DNA of 21,353 nucleotides, from positions 1 through 21,353 of IMG/VR virus record IMGVR_UViG_3300005613_000471; one strand, written 5' to 3'. This document shows positions 8,384 to 21,353 of this stretch, in pieces (positions within the stretch are counted from its first letter, which is position 1; every line of letters starts with the position of its first letter). The notes under the pieces were generated by a model, which did no database searches, was not told where the DNA came from, and was given only the letters and a program-made list of their open reading frames with translations. The translations under genes were made by a program, and so were the position numbers. Origin of the DNA: a virus.

Positions 8384-8779
8384 TTAGTTATTTATTTGAA
8401 AACTTTGATATGGAATGGAGCGCATGTCCTCAAGTTCCAGTGGATAAACTAAATGTAAATCATTATTTCCAACTTCATTCCAGGTATAGTTCCTGAATGG
8501 TTCATTACCTAATGCTGCCCAGTGATAATTAACACCTTTGAACCCCCAATTAAAAACACCGATACATGCTATCAAAGGGAATTGATCATATTGAATTCGT
8601 GGTGTCTTAGGACGATAAATGAACGTATAATATCTACCGACTTGTGGAACAAGTTCTGTTGTTGTTAGAACAGACATTAATTCTAAGAACATATCATCAG
8701 GTTGTCCTGCATTTATGATACCATCACGAAGGTATTCAATTCTATTTGTGTCGCTTATTAGGTAGTCTTCTTGTTCCAT
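8384..8779 (-). CDS. Conserved hypothetical, probably baseplate-associated (131 aa)
   Basis: A 131-residue protein starting [20 protein letters not shown], with a central aromatic segment (YYTFIYRPKTPRIQYDQFP, then FNWGFKGVNYHW) and an acidic C-terminal part. It looks like a small beta-rich structural protein. I cannot name its family. Its position between gp4 and gp48 in the leftward late operon makes a virion or baseplate role likely. Its ATG overlaps the stop of the GIY-YIG gene (TAATG). Confidence 0.75.
   Translation of the reverse strand: MEQEDYLISDTNRIEYLRDGIINAGQPDDMFLELMSVLTTTELVPQVGRYYTFIYRPKTPRIQYDQFPLIACIGVFNWGFKGVNYHWAALGNEPFRNYTWNEVGNNDLHLVYPLELEDMRSIPYQSFQINN
8389..8396 (-). 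promoter_or_regulatory. Late promoter box before gene 48
   Basis: On the minus strand the sequence reads AATAAATA, one mismatch from TATAAATA and a match to the NATAAATA form of cyanophage late promoters. It ends 13 bases before the gp48 ATG and lies in the last codons of the preceding gene. The predicted leader is very short. Confidence 0.4.
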
Positions 8780-9060
8780 TACCCTTTAAGGATAAAGTAT
8801 CTGGATAAACCTGCGTCTTTCATCGCTGCCGTCATAGACGGGTATTCTATACCTTTATATTTAACAGGTTTGGCAGCATAGAACTGCCCTTTCATAAATT
8901 CACTATGTTTCTTTCTTTTTTCTATATCAGTTGAATTTACTTCCGCCATCTTTTGAATATTTTTTTCATGGTCGCCATACATCCTACGACCTGTTCCTTT
9001 GCCAATATAATATGGCGTTCCGTCTTCCCTAAGATAAGCGTAGGTGTAAAATCTATTCAT
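8779..9060 (-). CDS. Shortened GIY-YIG homing endonuclease, likely inactive
   Basis: A 93-residue protein. The first 25 residues are a clear GIY-YIG start ([20 protein letters not shown], then GRR). The last part is an intact NUMOD-type end: a NUMOD3-like [12 protein letters not shown], then [20 protein letters not shown] and RYFILKG. The middle of a normal enzyme, including the conserved catalytic Glu region of the GIY-YIG fold, is missing; free-standing relatives are roughly twice as long. This looks like an in-frame internal deletion that kept both ends. The gene fits exactly between gp4 (stop/start overlap ATGA) and the next gene (TAATG), so selection may keep the reading frame for translational coupling. 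Confidence 0.8.
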
Positions 9061-9579: not shown

Positions 9580-10335
9580 ATGGCAGGACCAAGAGGAAAC
9601 GCACAGAAGATATCGTCACTGAAGACTAAGATTGGTGAACTATCACAAACTAATGTATTTCAAGTTGGTCTTCAACCTCCTGCTGCTGTAAGTCAATTTA
9701 TAAGACGAGAGTATTCTGTCCGTTATAATGAGAATATTGAATTGCTATGTAATAGTGCGACATTGCCTGGAAGCAGATTGGCAACGCATGAACAGTCGCA
9801 AGACTTTTATGGTGTTAGAGAAAGGTATGCGTATAGAAAACAATTTGATGAAACACTTCAATTAAATTTCTATGTTGATATCAACTATGATATAATTACT
9901 TTCTTTGAAGGTTGGCAGAATTATATTATGGGTATAGGTCCGGGTGCTAATCAAACATCGGAAGACGATTATTTAGAACCCACTGCGACATATAGAGTAT
10001 CTTATCCAAAAGGTGCTGCAGGATATGTGACACAGATATTTGTTTCTAAATTTGAAAAAGATTTAAGAGCAAAACAATTGCAGTATGTTTTTACTGATGC
10101 ATTTCCTATAGGATTTAACTCGATGCCGGTTCAGTATGGACCAGCAGAAATTCTTCAAATGACTGTTGATTTTGCTTATACCAAATACGTCAGAGGGGTG
10201 GTACAAGGTGTTCAAAAAACTCCTAGAGGAACTGTTGTAGGAAGTGTTAATTCTAGACCTGGATTCGTAACTGAAGATATTTTATTACCATCAGGTGAAA
10301 TAATTCAAAGAGAAAGAAGAATATCATCTGGTTGA
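9580..10335 (+). CDS. 54: Baseplate tail-tube initiator, gp54-like
   Basis: A 251-residue tube-fold protein. It starts MAGPRGNAQKISSLKTKIGE and has a core like tail-tube proteins: CNSATLPGSRLATHEQ, then RKQFDETLQLNFYVD, IITFFEGWQNYIMG and YPKGAAGYVTQIFVSKFEKD. In T4, gp54 sits on gp48 and nucleates the gp19 tube. The gene starts the rightward tail cluster and precedes gp26. It could be a second tube protein; the place next to gp26/gp51 and opposite gp48 favours gp54. No Shine-Dalgarno is visible, and the start codon overlaps the divergent late boxes. Confidence 0.65.
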   Translation: MAGPRGNAQKISSLKTKIGELSQTNVFQVGLQPPAAVSQFIRREYSVRYNENIELLCNSATLPGSRLATHEQSQDFYGVRERYAYRKQFDETLQLNFYVDINYDIITFFEGWQNYIMGIGPGANQTSEDDYLEPTATYRVSYPKGAAGYVTQIFVSKFEKDLRAKQLQYVFTDAFPIGFNSMPVQYGPAEILQMTVDFAYTKYVRGVVQGVQKTPRGTVVGSVNSRPGFVTEDILLPSGEIIQRERRISSG

Positions 10336-10341
10336 TAAATA
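10334..10341 (+). promoter_or_regulatory. Possible late promoter box before gene 26
   Basis: GATAAATA overlaps the gp54-like stop codon and ends 25 bases before the gp26 ATG. It differs from TATAAATA only at the first, tolerant position. Confidence 0.4.
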
Positions 10342-10366
10342 TACTGACTGAACTTTATGGGTTGTT

Positions 10367-11086
10367 ATGCCTTTACCAAAAATTGCCACACCAACTTATG
10401 AATTGGTGTTACCCTCGACTAAAAATACAATTAAGTACAGACCTTTCTTGGTTAAAGAAGAGAAGTTGCTTGTGCTTGCATTAGAAACTGAAGATACTAA
10501 ACAAATCACACAAGCCATTACAACTGTAATAAAGGGATGTGTTCTTACAAAAAATGTTGATGTTGAAGAACTTCCCACATTTGATATTGAATATCTTTTC
10601 TTGAACATTAGAGGTAAATCTGTTGGTGAGGTTGTAGATGTTAATATCATCTGCCCCGATGATGGTGAGACTGAAGTTCCCGTTAAAATTAATCTTGATG
10701 AAATTGAAGTTCAGTTTGATGAAAATCATACAAAACAAATTAAGATTGATGATAACTTGATGATGGAGATGAAGTATCCATCACTGGAACAATTCATTAA
10801 GAACAACTTTGATTTCAGTGGTGAGTCTAATATGGAACAGTCCTTTGAAATTATTGGAAGTTGTATTGATAAGATCTATAATGAAGAAGAAGTTTGGGCA
10901 ACTGATGATTGTACTAAAGAAGAGATTACTGAATTCTTAGAGCAGATGAATTCAGTTCAGTTTAAAGAAGTAGAGAAATTCTTTAGCACGATGCCTAAAC
11001 TATCGCATGAAATCAAGGTAACAAATCCTAATACTAAAAAGAAAAGCACTGTCGTTCTGGAGGGTTTATCCAGTTTTTTCGGGTAG
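10367..11086 (+). CDS. 26: Baseplate hub protein gp26
   Basis: A 239-residue homologue of T4 gp26, a baseplate hub component. The opening ATPTYELVLPSTKNTIKYRP, followed by FLVKEEKLLVLALETED, is the family signature. Later come DIEYLFLNIRGKSVGE and an acidic middle region. In T4 the gp26/gp51 pair is needed for hub assembly; here gp51 also follows at once. It is acidic, with no membrane segment. Confidence 0.88.
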   Translation: MPLPKIATPTYELVLPSTKNTIKYRPFLVKEEKLLVLALETEDTKQITQAITTVIKGCVLTKNVDVEELPTFDIEYLFLNIRGKSVGEVVDVNIICPDDGETEVPVKINLDEIEVQFDENHTKQIKIDDNLMMEMKYPSLEQFIKNNFDFSGESNMEQSFEIIGSCIDKIYNEEEVWATDDCTKEEITEFLEQMNSVQFKEVEKFFSTMPKLSHEIKVTNPNTKKKSTVVLEGLSSFFG

Positions 11087-11097
11087 GAATGGTACAC

Positions 11098-11268
11098 ATG
11101 GATCTGGAGGGATATTTTAAACTCAATTTCTCCTTGATGCAGTACCATAAATATTCATTGACTGAGATTGAGAACATGATGCCTTGGGAAAGAGACATTT
11201 ATGTTCAACTTCTAAAAAATCACCTAGAGGAAGAGGAACAAAAAGCAAAGGCAAGACAGAATGGATGA
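11098..11268 (+). CDS. 51: Baseplate hub assembly protein gp51-like (56 aa)
   Basis: A 56-residue protein MDLEGYFKLNFSLMQYHKYS, followed by LTEIENMMPWERDIYVQLLK and a charged helical end. The 'F-L-Q-H-YSL-EI--M-PWER--Y' pattern is that of cyanophage gp51 and of many phage tail assembly proteins encoded next to gp26. In T4, gp51 is a catalyst of hub assembly. An in-frame ATG at 11089 would add three residues, but AGGA (11085-11088) touches it directly, while it lies 9 bases from ATG 11098. The end overlaps the next start (11261) by 8 bases. Confidence 0.75.
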   Translation: MDLEGYFKLNFSLMQYHKYSLTEIENMMPWERDIYVQLLKNHLEEEEQKAKARQNG

Positions 11269-13573
11269 AATTCCAGAAGGTTTAGAGGATCTACTAAAAG
11301 ATATATTGGATGATGAGGAGAAGAAACCTTCTCCTCAAAGTTCTTCTGCGCTTGCTGTTATTCCAAAAGTAGAAAAAGAAGAAGAAGATTTAGTTGATGA
11401 TGAAATTGATGAAAGAATTTTAACTTTACTCGGATTAGAAGATGTAACCGACATTGATTATGCCACATATAAATCCCTTTTAAGGGAAAAGGTTGCTGCT
11501 GCCAGAATGTCCGGTAGCACTATGTCTTCTGAAGAAGCAGAAATTATTACCAATGAATTTAAAAGGGTAAAGAAATTAACTGGCAGATTTAAGATAAAGA
11601 AGAAAAAAATAAATGTTGAATCATTTTTTGAAACTGTTCAAGAAAAAACAGAAAGCAAAGAAGAAGATGAAGATATTCCTGATGGATTAGATGATCTAAT
11701 TAATGAAATTAAGGAAGAGGTTGATCTAAAAGAACCTGAGGAGGAAACTCAAGAGGAAAAAGAAGAAAAAGAAGATAAAGCAGAAAAATTTATTAAACTT
11801 ACTCTTGCTCCCAGTTTAAGTAAGATTGAAAAAAATCTTGAGAGTATTCTTGATACACTGACCAAGCAGTTTCAGTTTGATAAGAAGCAAAGTGAGAAGG
11901 CTGCTGATGTTGCACAGACCAGTAGAAAAAGAGAAAGAGAGAAAAAGTCAGAAACAAAAAAAGGTAGTAAAGTAAAAGACACCGCAGATAAAGTAGTCAA
12001 ACCTGTCAAAGGCATGTTTGATATGATAATGGACTTCTTTAAGAACATTCTTCTTGGGGGTGCATTGTTGTGGTTATTAAACTTTTTAAAAGATCCAGCA
12101 AAAGCATTTCAACCAATCATTGATGCTATAAATGGAGTTATAGATTTTTTAAATAATGTCATAAAGACAGTATTTGATTTTGTGTTTGCTCCAGTCAATG
12201 ATGCTCTAAGTGGTATATGGGATGGACTTAATTTTTTAGAAGATAGATTGAATGATGCGACATCATTGTTTGGTCAGGAACCAATTGATAATATAAATGA
12301 AGAAAATAAACCTAAGTTTGAAGCACCGCAAATACCAAAGGTAGAAAATCCATTTAAGAAACCAGAATCAACACCGGCACAAGAACCAACACCAGTCCAA
12401 GGAATGGAAGGCGGTGGTGTTATTTCATCTTTAACTAACAACAATACCCCTACTAATTTTATTAGTAACAACAATACCCCTACTAATTTTATTAGTAACA
12501 ACAATACCCCTACTAATTTTATTAGTAACAACAATACCTCTAATTTCTTTTCTTCTTTAACTAACAATAATACCTCAAGATCTAATTCTTCTTTAATTAA
12601 TAATAAATCAATTAATATTTCAGACTTACTATTCGCTGGTGGTGGTTCTATCACTAGTGATTCTGGACAAAGCATAACAGGTATGGGTGCTGATACACAA
12701 TTAGTTGCTCTTCAACCAGGAGAAGTGGTGATGAGTAAACCTGCTGTTAATCACTATGGTGCGAGTAACCTTCTTGCGATGAATAAAGAAGGTGGTGGAA
12801 CAAACAAACCAAAGACAGGAAAAATAATGGGTATGCAAGGTGGTGGTATGGTTGAAGTGAAGGGCACCGGCAACACCGTTGAAGGAACTTTGAAGTTGAA
12901 GGACTCTACTGGTAAACAGGTAGGCAAAACCTATAGCGCCATCAGTGGCACATACGCTGGTATGAACGTTCCTCAAAACAGAAGATCTACAACTAGAAAC
13001 GCCCCAATACCAGATGGTAACTATAAGTTACTTGGTTTTGAAAAGCACGGACCCTATCCTGGACTGCCTGGCATAGGTCATTGGAGCACATATATTGCAA
13101 ACGCTGGTGGGTCTATTGGTAGTAGAAGTGGTCTCATGCTTCATAGTGATATTGGAAGTAACGGAACACTTGGATGTGTCGGTGTAGAACTTGGTGGTGT
13201 CGCAGGAACAAAATCTGAACAAGAATTTTTACAGGCATACCAGCAGGTAAATCCGGAAAAGATTAAGATTGCACTAGGTGGTGGCGGTGGTGATGCTAGT
13301 GAAGTTGCATCAGTTGATAGAAAACCAACCCCTGATAACTCCGATAAAGCAGCTAAAATAAGACCACCATCTGGACGCACGAACACAACACCAAAAGCAC
13401 CTGCACCTGCCCGATTTACTGGTGTGGTATTGCCCACTATGCAACAATCAAGAAATAAGGCACCATCAAGTGGTTCAGTTATGTCTGGTAAAAATGTTCC
13501 CAACATATCTCCAATTGATTTAGGTAACACTGAACTGATGGTCATCAAAGCAATCTATAATATCGTAGGATAA
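11261..13573 (+). CDS. Large tail protein with YkuD-like (L,D-transpeptidase-like) domain
   Basis: A 770-residue modular protein. Residues 1-250 are highly charged and helical, with a duplicated motif (IPEGLEDLLKDI at 4-15, IPDGLDDLINEI at 139-150). A hydrophobic segment follows (262-276, NILLGGALLWLL). Residues 392-430 hold three full NNNTPTNFIS units and a partial fourth. LVALQPGEVVMSKPAVNHYG (481-500) matches a motif common near the end of tape-measure and related tail proteins. Residues about 530-672 resemble a YkuD-type fold, with His628 and Cys639 in HSDIGSNGTLGCVG as the expected catalytic pair. The C-terminus has a DRKPTPDNSDKA box shared with the next gene. It could be the tape measure or a hub protein that remodels peptidoglycan during injection; which one is open. 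Confidence 0.7.
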   Translation: MDEIPEGLEDLLKDILDDEEKKPSPQSSSALAVIPKVEKEEEDLVDDEIDERILTLLGLEDVTDIDYATYKSLLREKVAAARMSGSTMSSEEAEIITNEFKRVKKLTGRFKIKKKKINVESFFETVQEKTESKEEDEDIPDGLDDLINEIKEEVDLKEPEEETQEEKEEKEDKAEKFIKLTLAPSLSKIEKNLESILDTLTKQFQFDKKQSEKAADVAQTSRKREREKKSETKKGSKVKDTADKVVKPVKGMFDMIMDFFKNILLGGALLWLLNFLKDPAKAFQPIIDAINGVIDFLNNVIKTVFDFVFAPVNDALSGIWDGLNFLEDRLNDATSLFGQEPIDNINEENKPKFEAPQIPKVENPFKKPESTPAQEPTPVQGMEGGGVISSLTNNNTPTNFISNNNTPTNFISNNNTPTNFISNNNTSNFFSSLTNNNTSRSNSSLINNKSINISDLLFAGGGSITSDSGQSITGMGADTQLVALQPGEVVMSKPAVNHYGASNLLAMNKEGGGTNKPKTGKIMGMQGGGMVEVKGTGNTVEGTLKLKDSTGKQVGKTYSAISGTYAGMNVPQNRRSTTRNAPIPDGNYKLLGFEKHGPYPGLPGIGHWSTYIANAGGSIGSRSGLMLHSDIGSNGTLGCVGVELGGVAGTKSEQEFLQAYQQVNPEKIKIALGGGGGDASEVASVDRKPTPDNSDKAAKIRPPSGRTNTTPKAPAPARFTGVVLPTMQQSRNKAPSSGSVMSGKNVPNISPIDLGNTELMVIKAIYNIVG
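12437..12538 (+). repeat. Three and a half 30-bp tandem repeats
   Basis: Units at 12437-12466, 12467-12496 and 12497-12526 are identical, with a partial fourth at 12527-12538. Each codes for NNNTPTNFIS and contains the perfect inverted repeat ACTAAT-TTT-ATTAGT. Degenerate relatives follow to about 12610. Identity at third codon positions points to recent slippage or duplication. Confidence 0.9.
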
Positions 13574-13574
13574 G

Positions 13575-16214
13575 ATGGCAGCACCACTTCTGATTGGTTT
13601 AGGTAAGGCACTATTATCTCAAGCACCTAAGATTGCTGCAAAGCAACTTGGGAAGAAGGCAGTGAAGAATGCTGCTAAGAATTTTATAAAAGGAAAAAAA
13701 GATAAAAAGAAAAAGAAAGGAGGAGCACTTGTTCGCTCTGAAGATATTACTAATGCGGGACAACAAGTTAATGAAACTGCACAAAAAATATCACCACAAA
13801 AGTTATTACCACCATCAACTGATACATCTACATCGTCCGCAGTTGTATCTTCCTCTGGCAAAACAAGTTACGAAAAAATATCACAAAGATTAGATAATAT
13901 AATTGGCATCACTGGTTCATTAGATAAAGCATTTAAGCAGCAACTTAAGGATAAAAAGAAAACAGCAAAAGCAGTTCAGAAAGCACGTCAAACAGAAAAC
14001 AAAAAAGCAAGAGAAGAAAAGTTAGAACAAGGTAAGAAATCTTTAGGTATCGGTGCTGCAGCAATGAGTGCGGCAAAGAAATTTGGTTTAATGGATTTTA
14101 TTACAAATGTTTTATTAGGTGGTCTTATTTTATTTTTACTTAAGCAAGCACCAAAAATTGAAAAAATATTTAACTTTTTAACTGAAAACATATACGCTTC
14201 TTTCTTGATTATTAGGGGTGTTCTTCAAGCATTTAAAGGTGCATTCAAGCAATTCGGCAAAATTGTAGGTGGTATTGTAAAGACTGGTATAAGATTTGCC
14301 ACTAAACCATTTAGGATGGCAGGTAGTGCCATTGCGTCTGGTTTTAGAAGATTGGGTAATGCTATCTTCAACTTTGCCAAAATGGGTCTCAATTTGATAA
14401 AAAGAGGACTTGGATTGAGACCAATTCCTAAGTCACCAGATAAAGGTGGTAAGAAAAGAAAAGGCAAAGGTAAACCAAGTGGCAGGAAGGGCAAAGGTAA
14501 ACCAAGTGGCAGGAAGGGCAAAGGTAATGTAAAGGATAAATTGAGAGGTAAACCAAATATAAAACCCAAAAGTAATATTTTATCCAAACTTTTTGGAAAT
14601 AAAGGTGCTAAAGATTTAGCAAAAGCAAAGGGACCACTTTCAAGAGTTTCTAGACTTGCAAAGGGAATTAGAATTCCAATATTAGGTCCGATTATTGTTG
14701 CCATCACTAGTATGCTTGCTGGAGATCCAGTGGGCAAAACACTATTTAAAGCAGTCGGAGCGGGTCTTGGTGAGGCATTAGGAACATTAATTCCTATTCC
14801 CATTGTTGGAACAATTATTGGTGGATTAATAGGAGAGTATGGAGGAGATTTACTTTATACTCTCCTTTACGGTGGTGGTATGGGATCTGTTGCTAATAAA
14901 ATTAATGAAGACTTTCAGAAAGCACTTGATGTTGGAGGACAGGCAATAGATTTCTTGAAGTCTGGATTTAGCAGATTAATTACAAGTTTTCCTGTTGTAA
15001 TAATACCTGAGGGGAGAGGTAGAAGAAGTATAACGACACAGGTTACAAAATTAATCCCCGGATTATTTGATTTCTTAAAGTCTAAAAATTATGTTGATGG
15101 GAAGGGACAGGTTACTAAATTTCCAGATATAGGAAAGTTTTTCTCAGAACCACAAAAAACATTTGGATTGTTAAAAAAATCATTTTTCCCAGCATCTAAA
15201 ACACAACCAGAGCAACCAGCGGTGGATACAATATCGGGAGATTCTGAATCACAAACCGCACCAACAACTTCCGCAACTGGTCCTGGGGGATATACGCCGC
15301 GGCCGCGGCGGATCACTTCATCTTCAATTAATGTGGGAACATTACCAGCAAAACCTACTAGAAAACAAGCATTCGACCATATTTACAAAATTGCTAAAAA
15401 GGTTGGCGGAACAAAATTCCCAGAGATTGTTGCTGCACAAGCAATGCATGAGACTGGATATCTTGTAAACCCAAATAGTGTTTATTTTGCAAGTGGTAAA
15501 ACAAATCCATTCGGTCAAACAGGTGATAGAGGATATGGCACAATACCTAGGGCAGGCTACCCTTCTGGGTGGACACTTTATCCAAACTTAGAAACGGCAG
15601 TTAGAGACCACATTAAACTGTGGCATGATGTTGGCAATCATCCAGGCAACTATAATGCTTTCAATAGTGCTTTAGAAGGAATTGCTAGTGTTGCTCCAGC
15701 ATATTCTCCTAATGCAGACCCTGCAAATATTCGCCTTGGTTATACAGTTGATGCTTATAGTAAAGGAATGGTCAGAGCACTTAAAGTAGGTGGATTTGAT
15801 CCAAAAACAAAACGAACGGGTGCTGCTCCTGCACCTGCACCATCAAATAACGCCACAGCATCTTCATTGCAACAACCGCAGACACCACTAATTTCTGATA
15901 GAAAATCAACCCCAGATAATTCAGAGAAAGCAAATAAATTACAACCAGCACCGACACAACAGCAACAAACAGCAACACCAGTTCAACCTTCATCCTCTAC
16001 TGCTTCACAGAGTGCTTCACAGGTCAGTAGATCTGCATCTTATGAAGATGGTGCTGAACAAACTATTGTAGTGCCATTACCATCTCAAGAGCAGACACCA
16101 ACAATGCAACCACAACAATCGGGTTCAGTGATAAGAGTCGGAGGGTCTACGAAAGATGTATTAAATAGTTACTATAAAGCACAACTGCTTGGATTCTTAT
16201 ATAAGCAAGGATAA
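13575..16214 (+). CDS. Large tail protein with glucosaminidase-like domain, tape-measure candidate
   Basis: An 879-residue protein. The N-terminal 170 residues are Lys/Ala-rich helices. A hydrophobic segment NVLLGGLILFLL (178-189) matches the one in the preceding protein. Further hydrophobic stretches lie at about 365-382 and 395-425. Residues 292-318 are a Lys/Gly-rich repeat (GKGKPSGRK twice). A Pro/Ser linker leads to a domain at about 596-740 resembling FlgJ/GH73 glucosaminidases: FPEIVAAQAMHETGY with Glu626 as probable catalytic acid, then NPFGQTG and TLYPNLETAVRDHI. DRKSTPDNSEKANK (775-788) copies the box in the preceding protein. Such phage proteins cut peptidoglycan during DNA entry. 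Hydrophobic segments plus a muramidase-type domain recall tape measures. Its stop overlaps the next ATG (TAATG). Confidence 0.72.
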   Translation: MAAPLLIGLGKALLSQAPKIAAKQLGKKAVKNAAKNFIKGKKDKKKKKGGALVRSEDITNAGQQVNETAQKISPQKLLPPSTDTSTSSAVVSSSGKTSYEKISQRLDNIIGITGSLDKAFKQQLKDKKKTAKAVQKARQTENKKAREEKLEQGKKSLGIGAAAMSAAKKFGLMDFITNVLLGGLILFLLKQAPKIEKIFNFLTENIYASFLIIRGVLQAFKGAFKQFGKIVGGIVKTGIRFATKPFRMAGSAIASGFRRLGNAIFNFAKMGLNLIKRGLGLRPIPKSPDKGGKKRKGKGKPSGRKGKGKPSGRKGKGNVKDKLRGKPNIKPKSNILSKLFGNKGAKDLAKAKGPLSRVSRLAKGIRIPILGPIIVAITSMLAGDPVGKTLFKAVGAGLGEALGTLIPIPIVGTIIGGLIGEYGGDLLYTLLYGGGMGSVANKINEDFQKALDVGGQAIDFLKSGFSRLITSFPVVIIPEGRGRRSITTQVTKLIPGLFDFLKSKNYVDGKGQVTKFPDIGKFFSEPQKTFGLLKKSFFPASKTQPEQPAVDTISGDSESQTAPTTSATGPGGYTPRPRRITSSSINVGTLPAKPTRKQAFDHIYKIAKKVGGTKFPEIVAAQAMHETGYLVNPNSVYFASGKTNPFGQTGDRGYGTIPRAGYPSGWTLYPNLETAVRDHIKLWHDVGNHPGNYNAFNSALEGIASVAPAYSPNADPANIRLGYTVDAYSKGMVRALKVGGFDPKTKRTGAAPAPAPSNNATASSLQQPQTPLISDRKSTPDNSEKANKLQPAPTQQQQTATPVQPSSSTASQSASQVSRSASYEDGAEQTIVVPLPSQEQTPTMQPQQSGSVIRVGGSTKDVLNSYYKAQLLGFLYKQG
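14463..14527 (+). repeat. Two and a half 27-bp tandem repeats
   Basis: Identical units at 14463-14489 and 14490-14516 with a partial third to 14527. They encode GKGKPSGRK units in a basic linker of the 879-residue tail protein. Confidence 0.85.
15295..15310 (+). repeat. 16-bp perfect G+C palindrome
   Basis: CGCCGCGGCCGCGGCG is its own reverse complement and contains no A or T, inside an AT-rich gene. It encodes part of TPRPRR (residues 574-579) just before the glucosaminidase-like domain. Confidence 0.8.
16207..16211 (+). promoter_or_regulatory. Shine-Dalgarno for the gp27-like gene
   Basis: AAGGA lies 2 bases before ATG 16214, which overlaps the preceding stop (TAATG), so re-initiation by terminating ribosomes is likely. 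Confidence 0.4.
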
Positions 16215-17542
16215 TGTCTACTAAAGGAACACAACAACTATCGGAGGTAAATGCTGGTAATATTACTAAATGCATCATCACATCTAATGAAAGTGGAAAT
16301 GCATTTGACCTAAGAGCAGGTGTCGCTGAATTAAATTACTATGAAAGCGTTCTTTCCAACACTATAACAGCAACACTTATCATTGTAGACACAGGATATA
16401 GAGCAAACGGATCAACAGGAAAATCTTTGATAGATGGATTACCAATTAGAGGTGGGGAAAGGGTTGATTTAGTCTTTAGTGATGCTAATAATCCTCAAAA
16501 TAATATCGGTGCAGTTTTATATGTTAACCGCGTAAGAGACGCTCAGTCTAGAACACAAAAAGACTTGTATATTTTAGACCTTGTAACACGGGAGTGTTTG
16601 TCTAATGAATTGACAAGAGTAACGAAAAGGTATCAGGGAAGAATAAGTGAGAATATTAAATCTATATTAACTGATATTCTGAAGACGGAGAATGATATTG
16701 ATGCAGATGCCACTGCTATTGATTATAATTTCCTTGGCAATGATAGAAAACCATTTTATGTTTGCACTTGGTTAGCATCAAAATCAACCCCACAAACAGC
16801 GGGTTCTAGCGGTAGTTCTATAGGTGGTACTGCTGGTTATCTGTTTTATCAAACAAAGGAAGGATTTAAGTTTAAATCATTAGATGTTTTACTATCTCAA
16901 ACACCTGATAAGAAATTCATTTATACAGGAACACCATTTCGCACCAAAGAATCTTCAAATATATACTCTTACACTATTGATAGAAACATAGAATTACAAT
17001 CTAATTTAAGTTTGGGTGTATATAACAATAGAACAATATTCTATGACCCTGTTGCATTTGATTATGAAGTTATAAACTTTAATTTGAAGGGTCAAGAAAA
17101 TAAAATATCAACTGCTGGTATCAATTTCAGTGGGGATTTAGTTGATAAAGCATTCACTTCGGGTCCATCTAGATTAATGAGTAATGTTCTTGATATTGGA
17201 TATAATCCATCAGGTTCTACACCAGAAGAACAACTTCAAAGTTGGAATGAACAAAAAACAAAGACAAATTTTGATGCTCCTAGAACAATGGTCCAGTCAG
17301 TGATGAGATATAATCAAGTGTTTACCATTCAAACAAACATCACCATTGGTGCTGATCTATCATTATCAGCAGGTGATATGATTGGTTGTACTTTTAAACA
17401 GACAGAAGGGGAGTCAAGAGATGAAATAAATAACCAAACAACAGGCAATTACCTCATCGCGCATTTGTGTCACAGAATAACACCTTCAGATTCCTTTACA
17501 AGTTTGGGGTTGGTAAGAGATTCATACGGTAAGCCAGAATGA
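16214..17542 (+). CDS. 27: Baseplate hub protein, gp27-like
   Basis: A 442-residue protein with the beta-rich pattern of gp27/gpD-type hub proteins. The start is an Asn/Thr-rich N-terminus followed by FDLRAGVAELNYYESVLSNT and ITATLIIVDTGY. Then come YVNRVRDAQ, DLYILDLVTRECLSNELTRV, YVCTWLASKS and a late domain with NITIGADLSLSAGDMIGCTF. In T4, trimers of gp27 form the hub ring that holds the gp5 spike. The next gene is gp5-like with an ATGA overlap, as expected for partners. Sequence similarity to T4 gp27 is low; context and fold-like pattern carry the call. Confidence 0.75.
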   Translation: MSTKGTQQLSEVNAGNITKCIITSNESGNAFDLRAGVAELNYYESVLSNTITATLIIVDTGYRANGSTGKSLIDGLPIRGGERVDLVFSDANNPQNNIGAVLYVNRVRDAQSRTQKDLYILDLVTRECLSNELTRVTKRYQGRISENIKSILTDILKTENDIDADATAIDYNFLGNDRKPFYVCTWLASKSTPQTAGSSGSSIGGTAGYLFYQTKEGFKFKSLDVLLSQTPDKKFIYTGTPFRTKESSNIYSYTIDRNIELQSNLSLGVYNNRTIFYDPVAFDYEVINFNLKGQENKISTAGINFSGDLVDKAFTSGPSRLMSNVLDIGYNPSGSTPEEQLQSWNEQKTKTNFDAPRTMVQSVMRYNQVFTIQTNITIGADLSLSAGDMIGCTFKQTEGESRDEINNQTTGNYLIAHLCHRITPSDSFTSLGLVRDSYGKPE

Positions 17543-20500
17543 TAGAACAGGGGTTTTTTAACAAACATTTTGTAGGTAGGGACGGATTCCAATGGTGGAT
17601 CGGTCAAATTCCTAATGCGGATGTTTGGCAGATGAATATCCCTGGAACCCGTGTCACAGGTAATAATCAAGTAGCAGGTTTCGGACAAAGGTATAAAGTC
17701 CGCATCATGGGATATCATACTGCAAGATCAACAGACCTCCCTGATGAGGACTTGCCTTGGGCATCTGTGATGTATCCAGTTACTGCTGGTAGTGGTAATA
17801 ATGGTTCTTCACAATCCGTTAATCTTCTCCAAGGTGATTTTGTTTATGGGTTCTTCTTAGACGGAGAAGACGGACAGCAACCTGTTATTATGGGTGTTGC
17901 TGGTTTTAATGAGTATCAGGCAGTGATGAAGAACGTTCCTGATGCTAAATTTGTTCCTTTCTTAGGATTGAAACCTGGTGTAGTTGATAATGGTTTTCTT
18001 CCTCTTGGTGCTCAGAGACAGACACAAGACCAGACTGTCATAGCACAAACTAACGCAGATGGAACACCATCAAATAATATTGCTATCGTTGCTGCTACAG
18101 TTGGTTTGCAGGATCAAGATAAGGCAACGGCAGAAGCAGACGATACAACTGAGCGCCAAGAAGAGGCATTAGCACAACCATCTGAATGTGAGCCACTTCC
18201 TATTGGGAAGATGCAACTGCAAGTTAGAAATTCTATTCAAAAAATTGAAAAAATTAGAAAGTCAGTTTATAACGTGCAGTCAGATATTCTAGAGACTGTA
18301 GGTAATGAACAGGCAAAAATTGATAAAGAAATCCAAAAAGCATCTGAGTTCATTGCCTCTAGCATGAAATGGGTTTATGAGCAAGTTGAAGCATTCATTA
18401 CAGATAAGACAAACGAAGCACTTAAAACTGTTTATGACCTTGCAATGCCCAATGAGAGAAATCTTGTTAAGCAAACATCAAAAACTATTTTAGATTCAAT
18501 TGCTTGCTTCTTTAGAAAGATAATGGCACAACTTGTCAAATTAGTTGGAGAATTTCTGAAGGATGCTGTTGAAAAAGTTATTAATGTTCCAGTTTGCTTT
18601 ATTGAAAATTTTGCTGGTGCAGTAATCGGAACTGTTGGTGGTGCTGTTGATGGATTATTTCAAGGCATTGAGGAATTGATCGGTGGTGTTGGTGATATTG
18701 TTGGTGAAGGTATTGATATTGCTGGTGATGCACTTGGACTTCTTGATAATCTTCTTTCAGCACTTTCTTGTGATGATAGACCTGAGTGTTCTAAGATCAA
18801 TAAATGGAACATTAGAGCAGGAGCAGGTGGAATCTCAAAGGCAGATGCTACCGGTATTCTTGAAAAAGCAAAGGGATTTGTTACTCAAGCACAAGGTCTT
18901 GGAACAAGTGCATTGGATTCATTTGATGGACTCACTAACATTGATCTAAGTTCTATTCTTACATCCACTGATTCTTGTAATACTGATGCAATTGCTTGTG
19001 GTCCACCAGGTATTGAATTTTTTGGTAGTGATGGTGCTGGTGCATTGGGTAATGTTGTTATAGGTGTGACTGGTGAAGTTCTTGCCGTTGATATGGTAAG
19101 TTTTGGGGCAGGTTTTGATGAAAATACAAGAGCAAAAATTGTTGACCCTTGTGGCAAGGGAAAAGGTGCCGTCGTAAGACCAGTTTTTGGACCTGTTCCT
19201 AGATCTGGTCGTTCAGAATTTGCGGATGGAGAAGAAGAAAGACAAGTAGTTGGAAGAAATGTAAAATCTACTATCAGAACATCTAGGAGAAGAGCAAAGG
19301 TTGGAGATACGATCACAATCAGATGGAATGTCACCGATGCTAAAAGGGTTATTGCAAAAGGAAAGGGGTTCCGTGATCAAGTTCAATCAGATCAATTTAG
19401 TGGAGCAGTAGATGTAACTGTAAGAAAAGGATTTACATCGTATAGCATCATCGGTGTCGGTGACGAAGATCGTGTAGAAGCAAATGTGGTTGTAGAAGGA
19501 ACAATTGGCAAACCAAGTCCTCAAACAAATGCCCCATACGGTCCAGGAAACTATAGACCTTCAGCATCTGGTGAAGGAACACAATTAAATCCAGATTTTC
19601 CTGGAAACCCAGGACTTCTTAACACTCCCACTGGTGGTGGAGGCGGTGGTGGGGTAGCACCACTAGGGTTTGGTCCTTTTGACCCAAATCCGTATCCATT
19701 TCCAGGTAATCCATTTGATGGTGCTCTTGTTCCAACACCTTTTAATCCTACCGGTGGTGTATTTGAAACACCAGCTTTTGGTCTTGGTCCAAGTTTAAAT
19801 ATAGGATCTCCTGTTGATGTCGCTCGTCCAGGTTCCGTTATCCCTGCTGAAAGTAAGATCGGATTAGGAGTAACAGGAGTTGAGGTTGAATTTACTGTTA
19901 ATAGATTTAGTGATTTGAATAATAGAATGACCTTCAGAATGGAAGGTTTTGATGATGACAATTTGGGTGACTATCAAGGAACAGGTGATTTATCTTTTTC
20001 ATTTACAGGTAATGATTTAGGAACAGAAATCAGATTAATCAGACCCAACACAAATTATATTGTAACTGGTTATTTGTCAACTGGTGAAAAAGTTCCTAAT
20101 CCACTTAAAAGAATAGTAGCTAAAGATAAAGATGATCCAGCAAAAGGATTTAATGTCTTAAAGAAGTCCAATTCGGCTTCGGGGTTGACCACAAAAAATA
20201 AAGGCAAGACAATTGGACTTGATGATGTCTTTGGTAGAAAAGAATATCAAGTTACTGAAACATTTACAAGAATAGAAAGAAATGCTGCTGGTGAAGCAGA
20301 CATTATTTGGAAATTTGGTAATAGTAGAGAACAAAATAAGTATGACTCTAATCCTAGCACTTATTTCAAAGACAAACTAAGTGATGGAAATAAAAAAATT
20401 AGATTACTAGATGGTGGTGGAGATGATACTAATGCTACCTTTGAAATTACTGAGGGTAATGGTAGATTCAGTGATGATGGACTAAAAGTTATCGGCACGG

Positions 20501-21353
20501 GTCGTATTGGCATAACACTTAAATGGGATGATAACAAGGACGATTTCGGCACTGCCATTGATTTTATTACCGTAACTGCTGTTCATGCTGGGGCAGATTC
20601 AACCTGGACACAAACTGAAGATGGTAAACCGGGTGGTGATAAAATTAGTAAGGGTGAAGACTTTGAATCTTTCTTTATTGATCCAGTAGATAGGGAAATC
20701 ACTGAAACAATTACAAAAACACTTCTTGATGAAGGAGAATCTGATTTCGATTATGATGATTTAGTTATCTCTGTTAATAAAGGTAAATTTAGAACTCAAG
20801 ATGACGGAACTGCTGTCTTCCGCGTTAGTATTGAAGATCCTTCGCCACCAGGAGATGCTCAACCTCAAGGTGGTGGTGGTGGTGGTGTTCCTTCAGGAGT
20901 TCCTGGAAGAGTAATTGATCAACCCCTATCACCTGGTGGTGATGATATAGGCATCATTGATGTTATTGTTATTGATGGTGGAGGTGGATATATTGGTGGT
21001 TTTGATGGAAGTTCAGGTGGTGATGGAAGAGTTTGGAAAGAACCAGATGAAACTGTCATTAAACGCAAAGATGGAAGATACGAACCACCTGCCCCACCTG
21101 AAATTAACAAATGCTTCTTACCTGGGGATGAAGTTACTTTACCACCAGGGACACAAGTTGTTACTGAACCAAATGATGGCGTAGGTGGTGGAGAACTAAT
21201 TATTGGTGGAAATATACATATTATACAAAAACCAGGATGTATTACCACCCCAGAAATACAACCGCCAGATCAACCACCCCCAGATCAACCACCCCCAGAT
21301 CAACCACCCCCAGATCAACCACCCCCAGATCAACCACCACCAGACTTTCCGAC
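17539..21353 (+). CDS. 5: Giant baseplate spike protein, gp5-like (3' end outside the window)
   Basis: At least 1271 residues, open at the right edge. Residues 1-130 match the gp5/VgrG-type OB-fold: FVGRDGFQWWIGQIPNADVW, IPGTRVTGNNQ, RYKVRIMGYHTARS, LPWASVMYPVTAGSG and PVIMGVAGF. It lacks a visible lysozyme domain, unlike T4 gp5 (575 aa). Later regions: a coiled-coil-like helix (about 225-305), a Gly/hydrophobic helical part (about 347-411), an Ig-like segment (about 588-655), a Gly/Pro-rich linker (about 668-764), a region ending in SDFDYDDLVISV that recalls DUF4114 of cyanobacterial surface proteins (about 934-1085), and a QPPPD repeat at the edge. It should sit on the gp27-like hub at the baseplate centre; the long tail may reach or bind the cell surface. 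Confidence 0.8.
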   Translation, partial: MIEQGFFNKHFVGRDGFQWWIGQIPNADVWQMNIPGTRVTGNNQVAGFGQRYKVRIMGYHTARSTDLPDEDLPWASVMYPVTAGSGNNGSSQSVNLLQGDFVYGFFLDGEDGQQPVIMGVAGFNEYQAVMKNVPDAKFVPFLGLKPGVVDNGFLPLGAQRQTQDQTVIAQTNADGTPSNNIAIVAATVGLQDQDKATAEADDTTERQEEALAQPSECEPLPIGKMQLQVRNSIQKIEKIRKSVYNVQSDILETVGNEQAKIDKEIQKASEFIASSMKWVYEQVEAFITDKTNEALKTVYDLAMPNERNLVKQTSKTILDSIACFFRKIMAQLVKLVGEFLKDAVEKVINVPVCFIENFAGAVIGTVGGAVDGLFQGIEELIGGVGDIVGEGIDIAGDALGLLDNLLSALSCDDRPECSKINKWNIRAGAGGISKADATGILEKAKGFVTQAQGLGTSALDSFDGLTNIDLSSILTSTDSCNTDAIACGPPGIEFFGSDGAGALGNVVIGVTGEVLAVDMVSFGAGFDENTRAKIVDPCGKGKGAVVRPVFGPVPRSGRSEFADGEEERQVVGRNVKSTIRTSRRRAKVGDTITIRWNVTDAKRVIAKGKGFRDQVQSDQFSGAVDVTVRKGFTSYSIIGVGDEDRVEANVVVEGTIGKPSPQTNAPYGPGNYRPSASGEGTQLNPDFPGNPGLLNTPTGGGGGGGVAPLGFGPFDPNPYPFPGNPFDGALVPTPFNPTGGVFETPAFGLGPSLNIGSPVDVARPGSVIPAESKIGLGVTGVEVEFTVNRFSDLNNRMTFRMEGFDDDNLGDYQGTGDLSFSFTGNDLGTEIRLIRPNTNYIVTGYLSTGEKVPNPLKRIVAKDKDDPAKGFNVLKKSNSASGLTTKNKGKTIGLDDVFGRKEYQVTETFTRIERNAAGEADIIWKFGNSREQNKYDSNPSTYFKDKLSDGNKKIRLLDGGGDDTNATFEITEGNGRFSDDGLKVIGTGRIGITLKWDDNKDDFGTAIDFITVTAVHAGADSTWTQTEDGKPGGDKISKGEDFESFFIDPVDREITETITKTLLDEGESDFDYDDLVISVNKGKFRTQDDGTAVFRVSIEDPSPPGDAQPQGGGGGGVPSGVPGRVIDQPLSPGGDDIGIIDVIVIDGGGGYIGGFDGSSGGDGRVWKEPDETVIKRKDGRYEPPAPPEINKCFLPGDEVTLPPGTQVVTEPNDGVGGGELIIGGNIHIIQKPGCITTPEIQPPDQPPPDQPPPDQPPPDQPPPDQPPPDFP
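21271..21345 (+). repeat. 15-bp tandem repeat encoding QPPPD
   Basis: Four perfect units of CAACCACCCCCAGAT at 21271-21330, a shortened variant before (21259-21270) and a diverged one after (21331-21345). They form a stiff proline linker in the gp5-like protein. The array is close to the window edge. Confidence 0.9.

Follow-up and report, generated by a model that had tools for sequence, protein, structure and literature searches.

Paired paralogous tail proteins with exchangeable peptidoglycan-cutting modules as candidate tape measures and wall-entry enzymes of T4-like cyanophages

How would a T4-like cyanophage whose gp5-like tail spike shows no lysozyme domain open the wall of its host? 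The question is raised by IMGVR_UViG_3300005613_000471, a 21-kb virus record (21,353 nucleotides, hereafter the window) whose source is a T4-like cyanophage and in which two large open reading frames (ORFs), here called slot 1 and slot 2, lie between the gp26-type and gp27-like baseplate hub genes. An initial annotation, made from the sequence alone, described them as adjacent tail proteins with different peptidoglycan modules that had arisen by duplication and domain exchange and that form a two-enzyme injection tool. The answer that we favour, and hold to be rather probable, is that the two are paired, hub-docked proteins of the tape-measure type which span the tail, are ejected from it and attack the wall at its sugar as well as its peptide bonds, in place of the lysozyme that is missing from gp5.

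The two ORFs were correctly placed at 11261-16214 and encode proteins of 770 and 879 amino acids (aa). The late genes around them follow one another on the + strand in the order gp54-like, gp26, gp51-like ORF, slot 1, slot 2, gp27-like hub and gp5-like spike, so that both slot genes occupy the position within the tail and hub cluster that would be expected of a tape measure. In the spike, whose ORF runs off the window, Gp5_OB alone was detected and no lysozyme domain was found, in agreement with the initial annotation.

The N-terminal regions of the two proteins share one frame. Family profiles built from the N-terminal regions of 88 slot-1 and 65 slot-2 proteins, all at loci where the N-terminus is intact, aligned with each other at an hhalign probability of 99.1% (E 6.9e-19, score 145), whereas the controls, comprising reversed profiles, profiles of gp26, gp27 and gp5, and 40 column-block shuffles, reached 41 at most; the match persisted at 98.8% after doubtful rows had been dropped and the profiles restricted to the clade of the window. 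The window pair alone gave a local alignment score of 120, against 52.6 +/- 9.7 (maximum 94) in 500 block shuffles, and tblastn with the window's slot 2 recovers slot 1 at 11816-12214. In 16 phages, BLAST also finds significant similarity between the two slots of one genome. Near-invariant columns also correspond between the independent alignments (slot-1 E227/E231/F259/G266 with slot-2 E147/E151/F175/G182), and the hydrophobic core with its N-LLGG motif is present in both proteins (aa 255-274 and aa 169-193), as had been claimed. Because the profile alignment, its controls, the matching columns and the within-genome BLAST matches agree, slot 1 and slot 2 are, as judged from their sequences, ancient paralogues. 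The two N-terminal halves thus align beyond chance, and the charged frame that the initial annotation saw in both is real.

The pair is not peculiar to the window. Across 93 loci that reach from gp26 to the gp27-like hub gene, exactly two large ORFs lie between these anchors in 89 and three in the other 4; the isolates with the pair include P-SSM2, P-SSM7, P-TIM68, S-PM2, S-H38, S-N03, S-H34, S-B68, S-SCSM1, S-CREM1, S-CREM2, S-SRM01 and S-SZBM1. Since nearly every sampled locus has both slots, the duplication predates the diversification of the sampled group. As for the loci with three ORFs, L039, L090 and L091 probably hold an extra slot copy, and in L136 slot 1 appears to be split in two. 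In the pelagiphage HTVC008M, which is more distant, a single protein of 687 aa adjoins gp26-gp51; it is annotated as a tape measure and matches many tape-measure PHROGs (to 8e-12).

A Pfam scan of the whole of slot 1 returned no matches, and its enzyme domain was therefore modelled. The AlphaFold2 model of aa 524-680 (pLDDT 85, pTM 0.82) had as its best three Foldseek matches in the PDB, the sole convincing ones, Csd6 (probability 1.00), Pgp2 (1.00) and DpaA (0.96). All three are peptidoglycan enzymes of the YkuD fold with a cutting, not a joining, activity. The His and Gly-Cys of the catalytic His...Gly-Cys motif are invariant in 39 of 39 homologues of the module. Pfam Tlde1_dom matches 9 of these 39 weakly (best 0.0013) and stays below its curated cut-off (17.0 bits against 30.1); by sequence the module is a distant relative outside both curated families, YkuD and Tlde1_dom. 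It shares its fold and His/Cys motif with Csd6, Pgp2, DpaA and Tlde1, but these are cellular enzymes or secreted effectors, whereas the phage module sits in a tail protein and is only 11-15% identical to solved YkuD-fold structures. The YkuD-like enzyme initially proposed for the first protein is thus supported by structure, with weak support from Pfam, and the model suggests that the module is probably an L,D-carboxypeptidase-like peptide cutter.

For the second protein, the proposal of a glucosaminidase-like enzyme held up: PF01832 matches all 33 homologues of the slot-2 module (aa 588-748; best 8.8e-15), with the window's own GH73 copy slightly under the curated cut-off (28.4 against 30.2 bits). 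In the catalytic-Glu motif AAQAMHE, Q35, A36, M37, H38 and E39 are invariant across the alignment of 33. The AlphaFold2 model is lysozyme-like, and its best PDB matches are all to MltE and not significant (E 0.69, probability 0.54); a PDB sequence search gave no matches for either the YkuD or the GH73 module. With a YkuD fold in slot 1 and GH73 in slot 2, the phage is predicted to combine a cutter of peptides with a cutter of sugars. One cutter of each class is likewise what 9 of the 10 single-class pairs consist of among 16 non-redundant phages with a module recognised in both slots. P-SSM2 keeps both frames with no enzyme recognised in either, which argues that the frame has a job of its own. 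Divergent GH73 relatives were also seen in ~930-aa ORFs of another gene setting in which no gp26 was found (L198, L199, L201-L203), a possible outside source of the GH73 module.

The enzymes are cassettes that replace one another, and a common pool supplies both slots. The nearest relative of the window, L082, is closely similar in gp26 (94% identity), the slot-1 frame (92%), the slot-1 C-terminus (91%) and the slot-2 frame (93%), yet the YkuD module is absent from it. Their DNA is 85-89% identical over 10301-12855, except for the repeat linker, and over 13386-14478, past which slot 2 diverges; the linker homology to L112 and L111 begins at 12679 and 12715, respectively, and that to L082 stops at 12855. 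Conversely, L110-L122 carry a YkuD module 79-86% identical to that of the window on a background of 62-65% identity in gp26 and 22-37% in the frames, and the GH73 module of L090/L091 is 77% identical where gp26 is 56-57%. We found 53 loci with the YkuD module in IMG/VR; nearly all could be placed, and each placed one has the module in a slot ORF of the cluster. The tree of this module requires three slot changes, of which at least two have strong branch support.

Because Pfam tallies over whole slot families undercount modules, local profiles were built, and these recognised 14 module types, 11 of which occur in both slots; the counts are not frequencies, since sampling was enriched for YkuD and GH73. 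Pfam gave no peptidoglycan-enzyme match for the modules of L082, L083 and L002, which were classed as zinc-amidase-like by eye only. The initial proposal of duplication followed by domain exchange is therefore well supported, with the correction that the duplication is old, while the exchange of enzymes is recent and continuing, both within and between slots.

A further element, the box DRKxTPDNSxKAxK, had been counted as part of the common frame. It does stand directly 3' of both enzyme modules, the DNA of its two copies is identical at 35 of 42 positions, and the two copies are more alike than chance would allow (71, against no more than 55 in 1000 shuffles). However, it is absent from every other slot protein examined and has zero matches in IMG/VR contigs, so it was rejected as a general frame element and is a private feature of the window's phage. 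The box is best explained by copying of sequence from one of the two genes to the other, rather than by a function in the frame.

Are these proteins part of the virion, and do they relate to the tail? Virion mass spectrometry of S-CREM2 detects both slot proteins (1565 and 1456 aa), under the name of endolysins (PMC10665884), with 73 peptides for one and 71 for the other (densities of 4.7 and 4.9 per 100 aa, similar to the 5.9 of the hub and the 4.9 of the spike), and both slot proteins of S-SCSM1 are marked as virion proteins (PMC9602691). Published mass spectrometry of homologues in these two relatives thus places the pair in the particle. For eight phages, tail length could be compared with mean slot length, giving r=0.93 (n=8), or, without S-CREM2, r=0.83 (p=0.02, n=7) with a slope of 0.144 nm/aa and an intercept of 9 nm. 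Published tape measures lie at ~0.15 nm/aa (PMC1796659, PMC3556154). The length of gp27, used as a control, was uncorrelated with tail length in the same comparison. Weak matches to tape-measure PHROGs were found for slot 1 of the window (2.8e-4) and slot 2 of P-SSM2 (0.0021). That tail length scales with slot-protein length at the classical tape-measure ratio is suggestive only, but together with the tape-measure position it indicates a likely role for the frame that the initial annotation had missed.

These observations suggest how the system could work. The two proteins, each a frame of charged helices and hydrophobic core joined by a flexible linker to a peptidoglycan-cutting module that can be exchanged, and ending in a conserved C-terminal peptide, would probably dock through these peptides onto the gp27-like hub and be packed in the tail at low, roughly equal numbers, where they would help to set its length. 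Upon contraction both would exit through the tube, the hydrophobic segments could act at the membrane, and the YkuD-fold module and the GH73 glucosaminidase would open the wall together, taking over the role of the T4 gp5 lysozyme. Recombination at the linkers would swap the module only and so create new enzyme specificities. A two-enzyme injection tool, as first proposed, fits the mass spectrometry of relatives, the position beside the hub genes, the failure to find a lysozyme in gp5 and the pairing of enzymes, with injection itself the conjectural step; the duplication-and-injection interpretation as a whole is thus partly supported. A more specific version, to which we give somewhat less than even credence, is a two-protein ruler in which both paralogues are tape measures armed with a replaceable wall-cutting module, for instance with three copies of each in the sixfold tube. 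If so, the module would also be ruler length and an enzyme swap would change the length of the tail. In mycobacteriophage TM4, deletion of the 114-aa hydrolase motif leaves a viable phage with a tail shorter by ~20 nm (PMC1796659), which shows that modules can count as ruler length.

Several points weigh against a tape-measure role or limit the evidence for it. The peptide densities do not prove location, because some non-tail virion proteins equal them; the tail lengths were published by different laboratories and some of the phages are related; gp5 length also correlates mildly with tail length in the phages other than S-CREM2 (r=0.62); and S-CREM2 is an outlier at 0.277 nm/aa. The pairing statistic (Fisher p 0.033) ignores kinship, and in 15 of 79 phages both slots lack a recognised enzyme. 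Homology to T4 gp29 (phrog_1283) was not detectable (hhalign 14% and 0.8%), although this is weak evidence, because in schizo- and exo-T4 phages the sequence of gp29 has reportedly become too divergent for BLAST to recognise (PMC2147016). The S-CREM2 slot proteins (L093) are themselves unusual: they are roughly double the common length and contain long repeats (NNSTT; FQQSMGSVAPAG) as well as several enzyme modules, recognised or seen by eye, and their ratio does not agree with a simple ruler of parallel helices, into which the other phages fit.

The strongest alternative, which we consider unlikely but worth weighing, is that the pair sits on the gp26/gp27/gp5 hub as virion-associated lysins and that another, unrecognised protein sets tail length. 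The missing gp29 homology and the departure of S-CREM2 from the ruler ratio speak for such hub-bound lysins, and the enzymes and gene position alone would require just a hub role. Yet tail length follows the lengths of both slots, forms without recognised enzymes persist (P-SSM2), and HTVC008M has a tape-measure-like protein at the same place. Two other long virion proteins of S-CREM2 that were considered as its ruler, ORF124 (2668 aa) and ORF130 (1640 aa), were rejected, as both have comparably long homologues in S-H34, whose tail is ~130 nm, and ORF124 also in S-N03. It is far less probable that the slot proteins are endolysins or capsid-packaged enzymes, as suggested by the authors of the S-CREM2 study, who considered them lysis proteins possibly encapsulated in the head (PMC10665884), and by automatic annotation as endolysin: their genes lie in the hub cluster in 93 loci, the non-enzymatic frame with its hydrophobic core is conserved, forms without a recognised enzyme exist, and S-CREM1 has a separate lysozyme and a holin-like gene elsewhere. 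Convergence, by which the N-terminal likeness would reflect charged coiled-coil composition rather than common descent, could appeal to the low-complexity, Lys/Glu-rich frames and to single-pair identities of merely ~25-33%, but is hardly credible in view of the shuffled and reversed controls, the corresponding E..E...F...G columns and the BLAST matches within single phages described above.

Hydrolase-bearing tape measures are already known, and tape-measure-type slot proteins would have several partial counterparts. TM4 gp17 (PMC1796659) and phiCbK gp95, with a CHAP domain (PMC3556154), are likewise long virion tail proteins with a wall-cutting motif, but there one tape measure carries one motif, whereas here there are two paralogues, and each can receive enzymes of many types. 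T4 gp29 is also encoded in the hub cluster and, at 590 aa, is similar in size to the enzyme-free slot proteins (516-529 aa); it is, however, single, without an enzyme and without detectable homology to the pair. T4 gp5 cuts the wall at the tail tip, as is proposed here, but its lysozyme sits in the spike, while in the window the enzymes reside in the two slot proteins. In Bacillus phage 0305phi8-36, the gp27 homologue gp147 is flanked by exchangeable wall-degrading domains (PMC2147016), which resemble the slot modules in being exchangeable and carried on a conserved baseplate part but are fused to the hub protein itself rather than to a duplicated pair beside it. We found no earlier account of paralogous tail proteins that occur as a pair in nearly all T4-like cyanophages and take exchangeable modules from a shared pool (subscription papers lay outside the literature search), nor of paired tape measures in the literature searched, where the matches concerned tape-measure chaperones, and the tape measure of T4-like marine cyanophages is not named in the cyanophage literature examined.

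The slot genes are annotated as hypothetical proteins or endolysins. Recognising the pair provides a candidate for both ruler and wall entry in a very common group of ocean viruses, and could explain entry where gp5 shows no lysozyme. Mounted on one kind of docking frame, the slot modules offer a natural collection of wall-cutting domains, and the walls that a phage can cross among cyanobacteria may depend in part on its enzyme pair.

Table 1. Positions of the slot genes, their parts and their neighbours in the window
Feature	Position	Strand	Remarks
Slot-1 protein	11261..13573	+	770 aa
Slot-1 shared frame	11801..12166	+	aa 181-302; charged helices (invariant E227/E231), then hydrophobic core
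Slot-1 hydrophobic core	12023..12082	+	MIMDFFKNILLGGALLWLLN, aa 255-274
Slot-1 repeat linker	12423..12610	+	10-aa units NNNTPTNFIS
Conserved linker with PGE motif	12626..12855	+	GADTQLVALQPGEVVMSKPAV...; 5' border of exchanged cassette; consensus
Slot-1 YkuD-fold domain	12827..13300	+	invariant H628 (13142-13144) and C639 (13175-13177)
DNA block replaced relative to L082	12856..13385	+	~530 base pairs, unrelated; encloses YkuD module
Slot-1 box	13316..13357	+	DRKPTPDNSDKAAK; inside block replaced relative to L082
Slot-1 conserved C-terminus	13466..13570	+	...IDLGNTELMVIKAIYNIVG; probable hub-docking peptide
Slot-2 protein	13575..16214	+	879 aa
Slot-2 shared frame	13863..14195	+	aa 97-207; invariant E147/E151/G182
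Slot-2 hydrophobic core	14079..14153	+	KFGLMDFITNVLLGGLILFLLKQAP, aa 169-193
Slot-2 hydrophobic glycine-rich middle	14619..14897	+	aa 349-441; phrog_12490 6.5e-12; hydropathy
Slot-2 GH73-type glucosaminidase domain	15336..15818	+	invariant E626 (15450-15452)
Slot-2 box	15897..15938	+	DRKSTPDNSEKANK
Slot-2 conserved C-terminus	16110..16211	+	...DVLNSYYKAQLLGFLYKQG
gp54-like tail-tube-type protein	9580-10335	+	
gp26-type baseplate hub assembly protein	10367..11086	+	upstream anchor; PF12322 E 1.1e-75; phrog_150
gp51-like small hub-assembly ORF	11089..11268	+	start 11089 or 11098; overlaps slot-1 start
gp27-like hub protein (T4-GC15)	16214..17542	+	downstream anchor; phrog_350 E 1.5e-93; T4-GC15 label
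gp5-like spike	17539..21351	+	Gp5_OB domain; ORF open at window end

The position of the gp51-like ORF agrees with that of the annotated gp51 of S-PM2, P-SSM2 and P-SSM7. A single base separates slot 1 from slot 2 and a single base is shared by slot 2 and the hub gene; the abutting or overlapping genes from gp51 onward suggest coupled translation. The glycine-rich middle of slot 2 is conserved among relatives and is possibly membrane-active. In S-PM2, aa 66-218 of slot 1 (L100:3357-6860) match the NAD:arginine ADP-ribosyltransferase family PF01129 (E 1.3e-5, above the curated cut-off), and a slot protein may thus also carry an effector-like domain into the host. Upstream of the cluster, a GIY-YIG-like endonuclease ORF (8384-9060, - strand) adjoins a short ORF resembling gp2, the DNA end protector, and is possibly a homing insertion.

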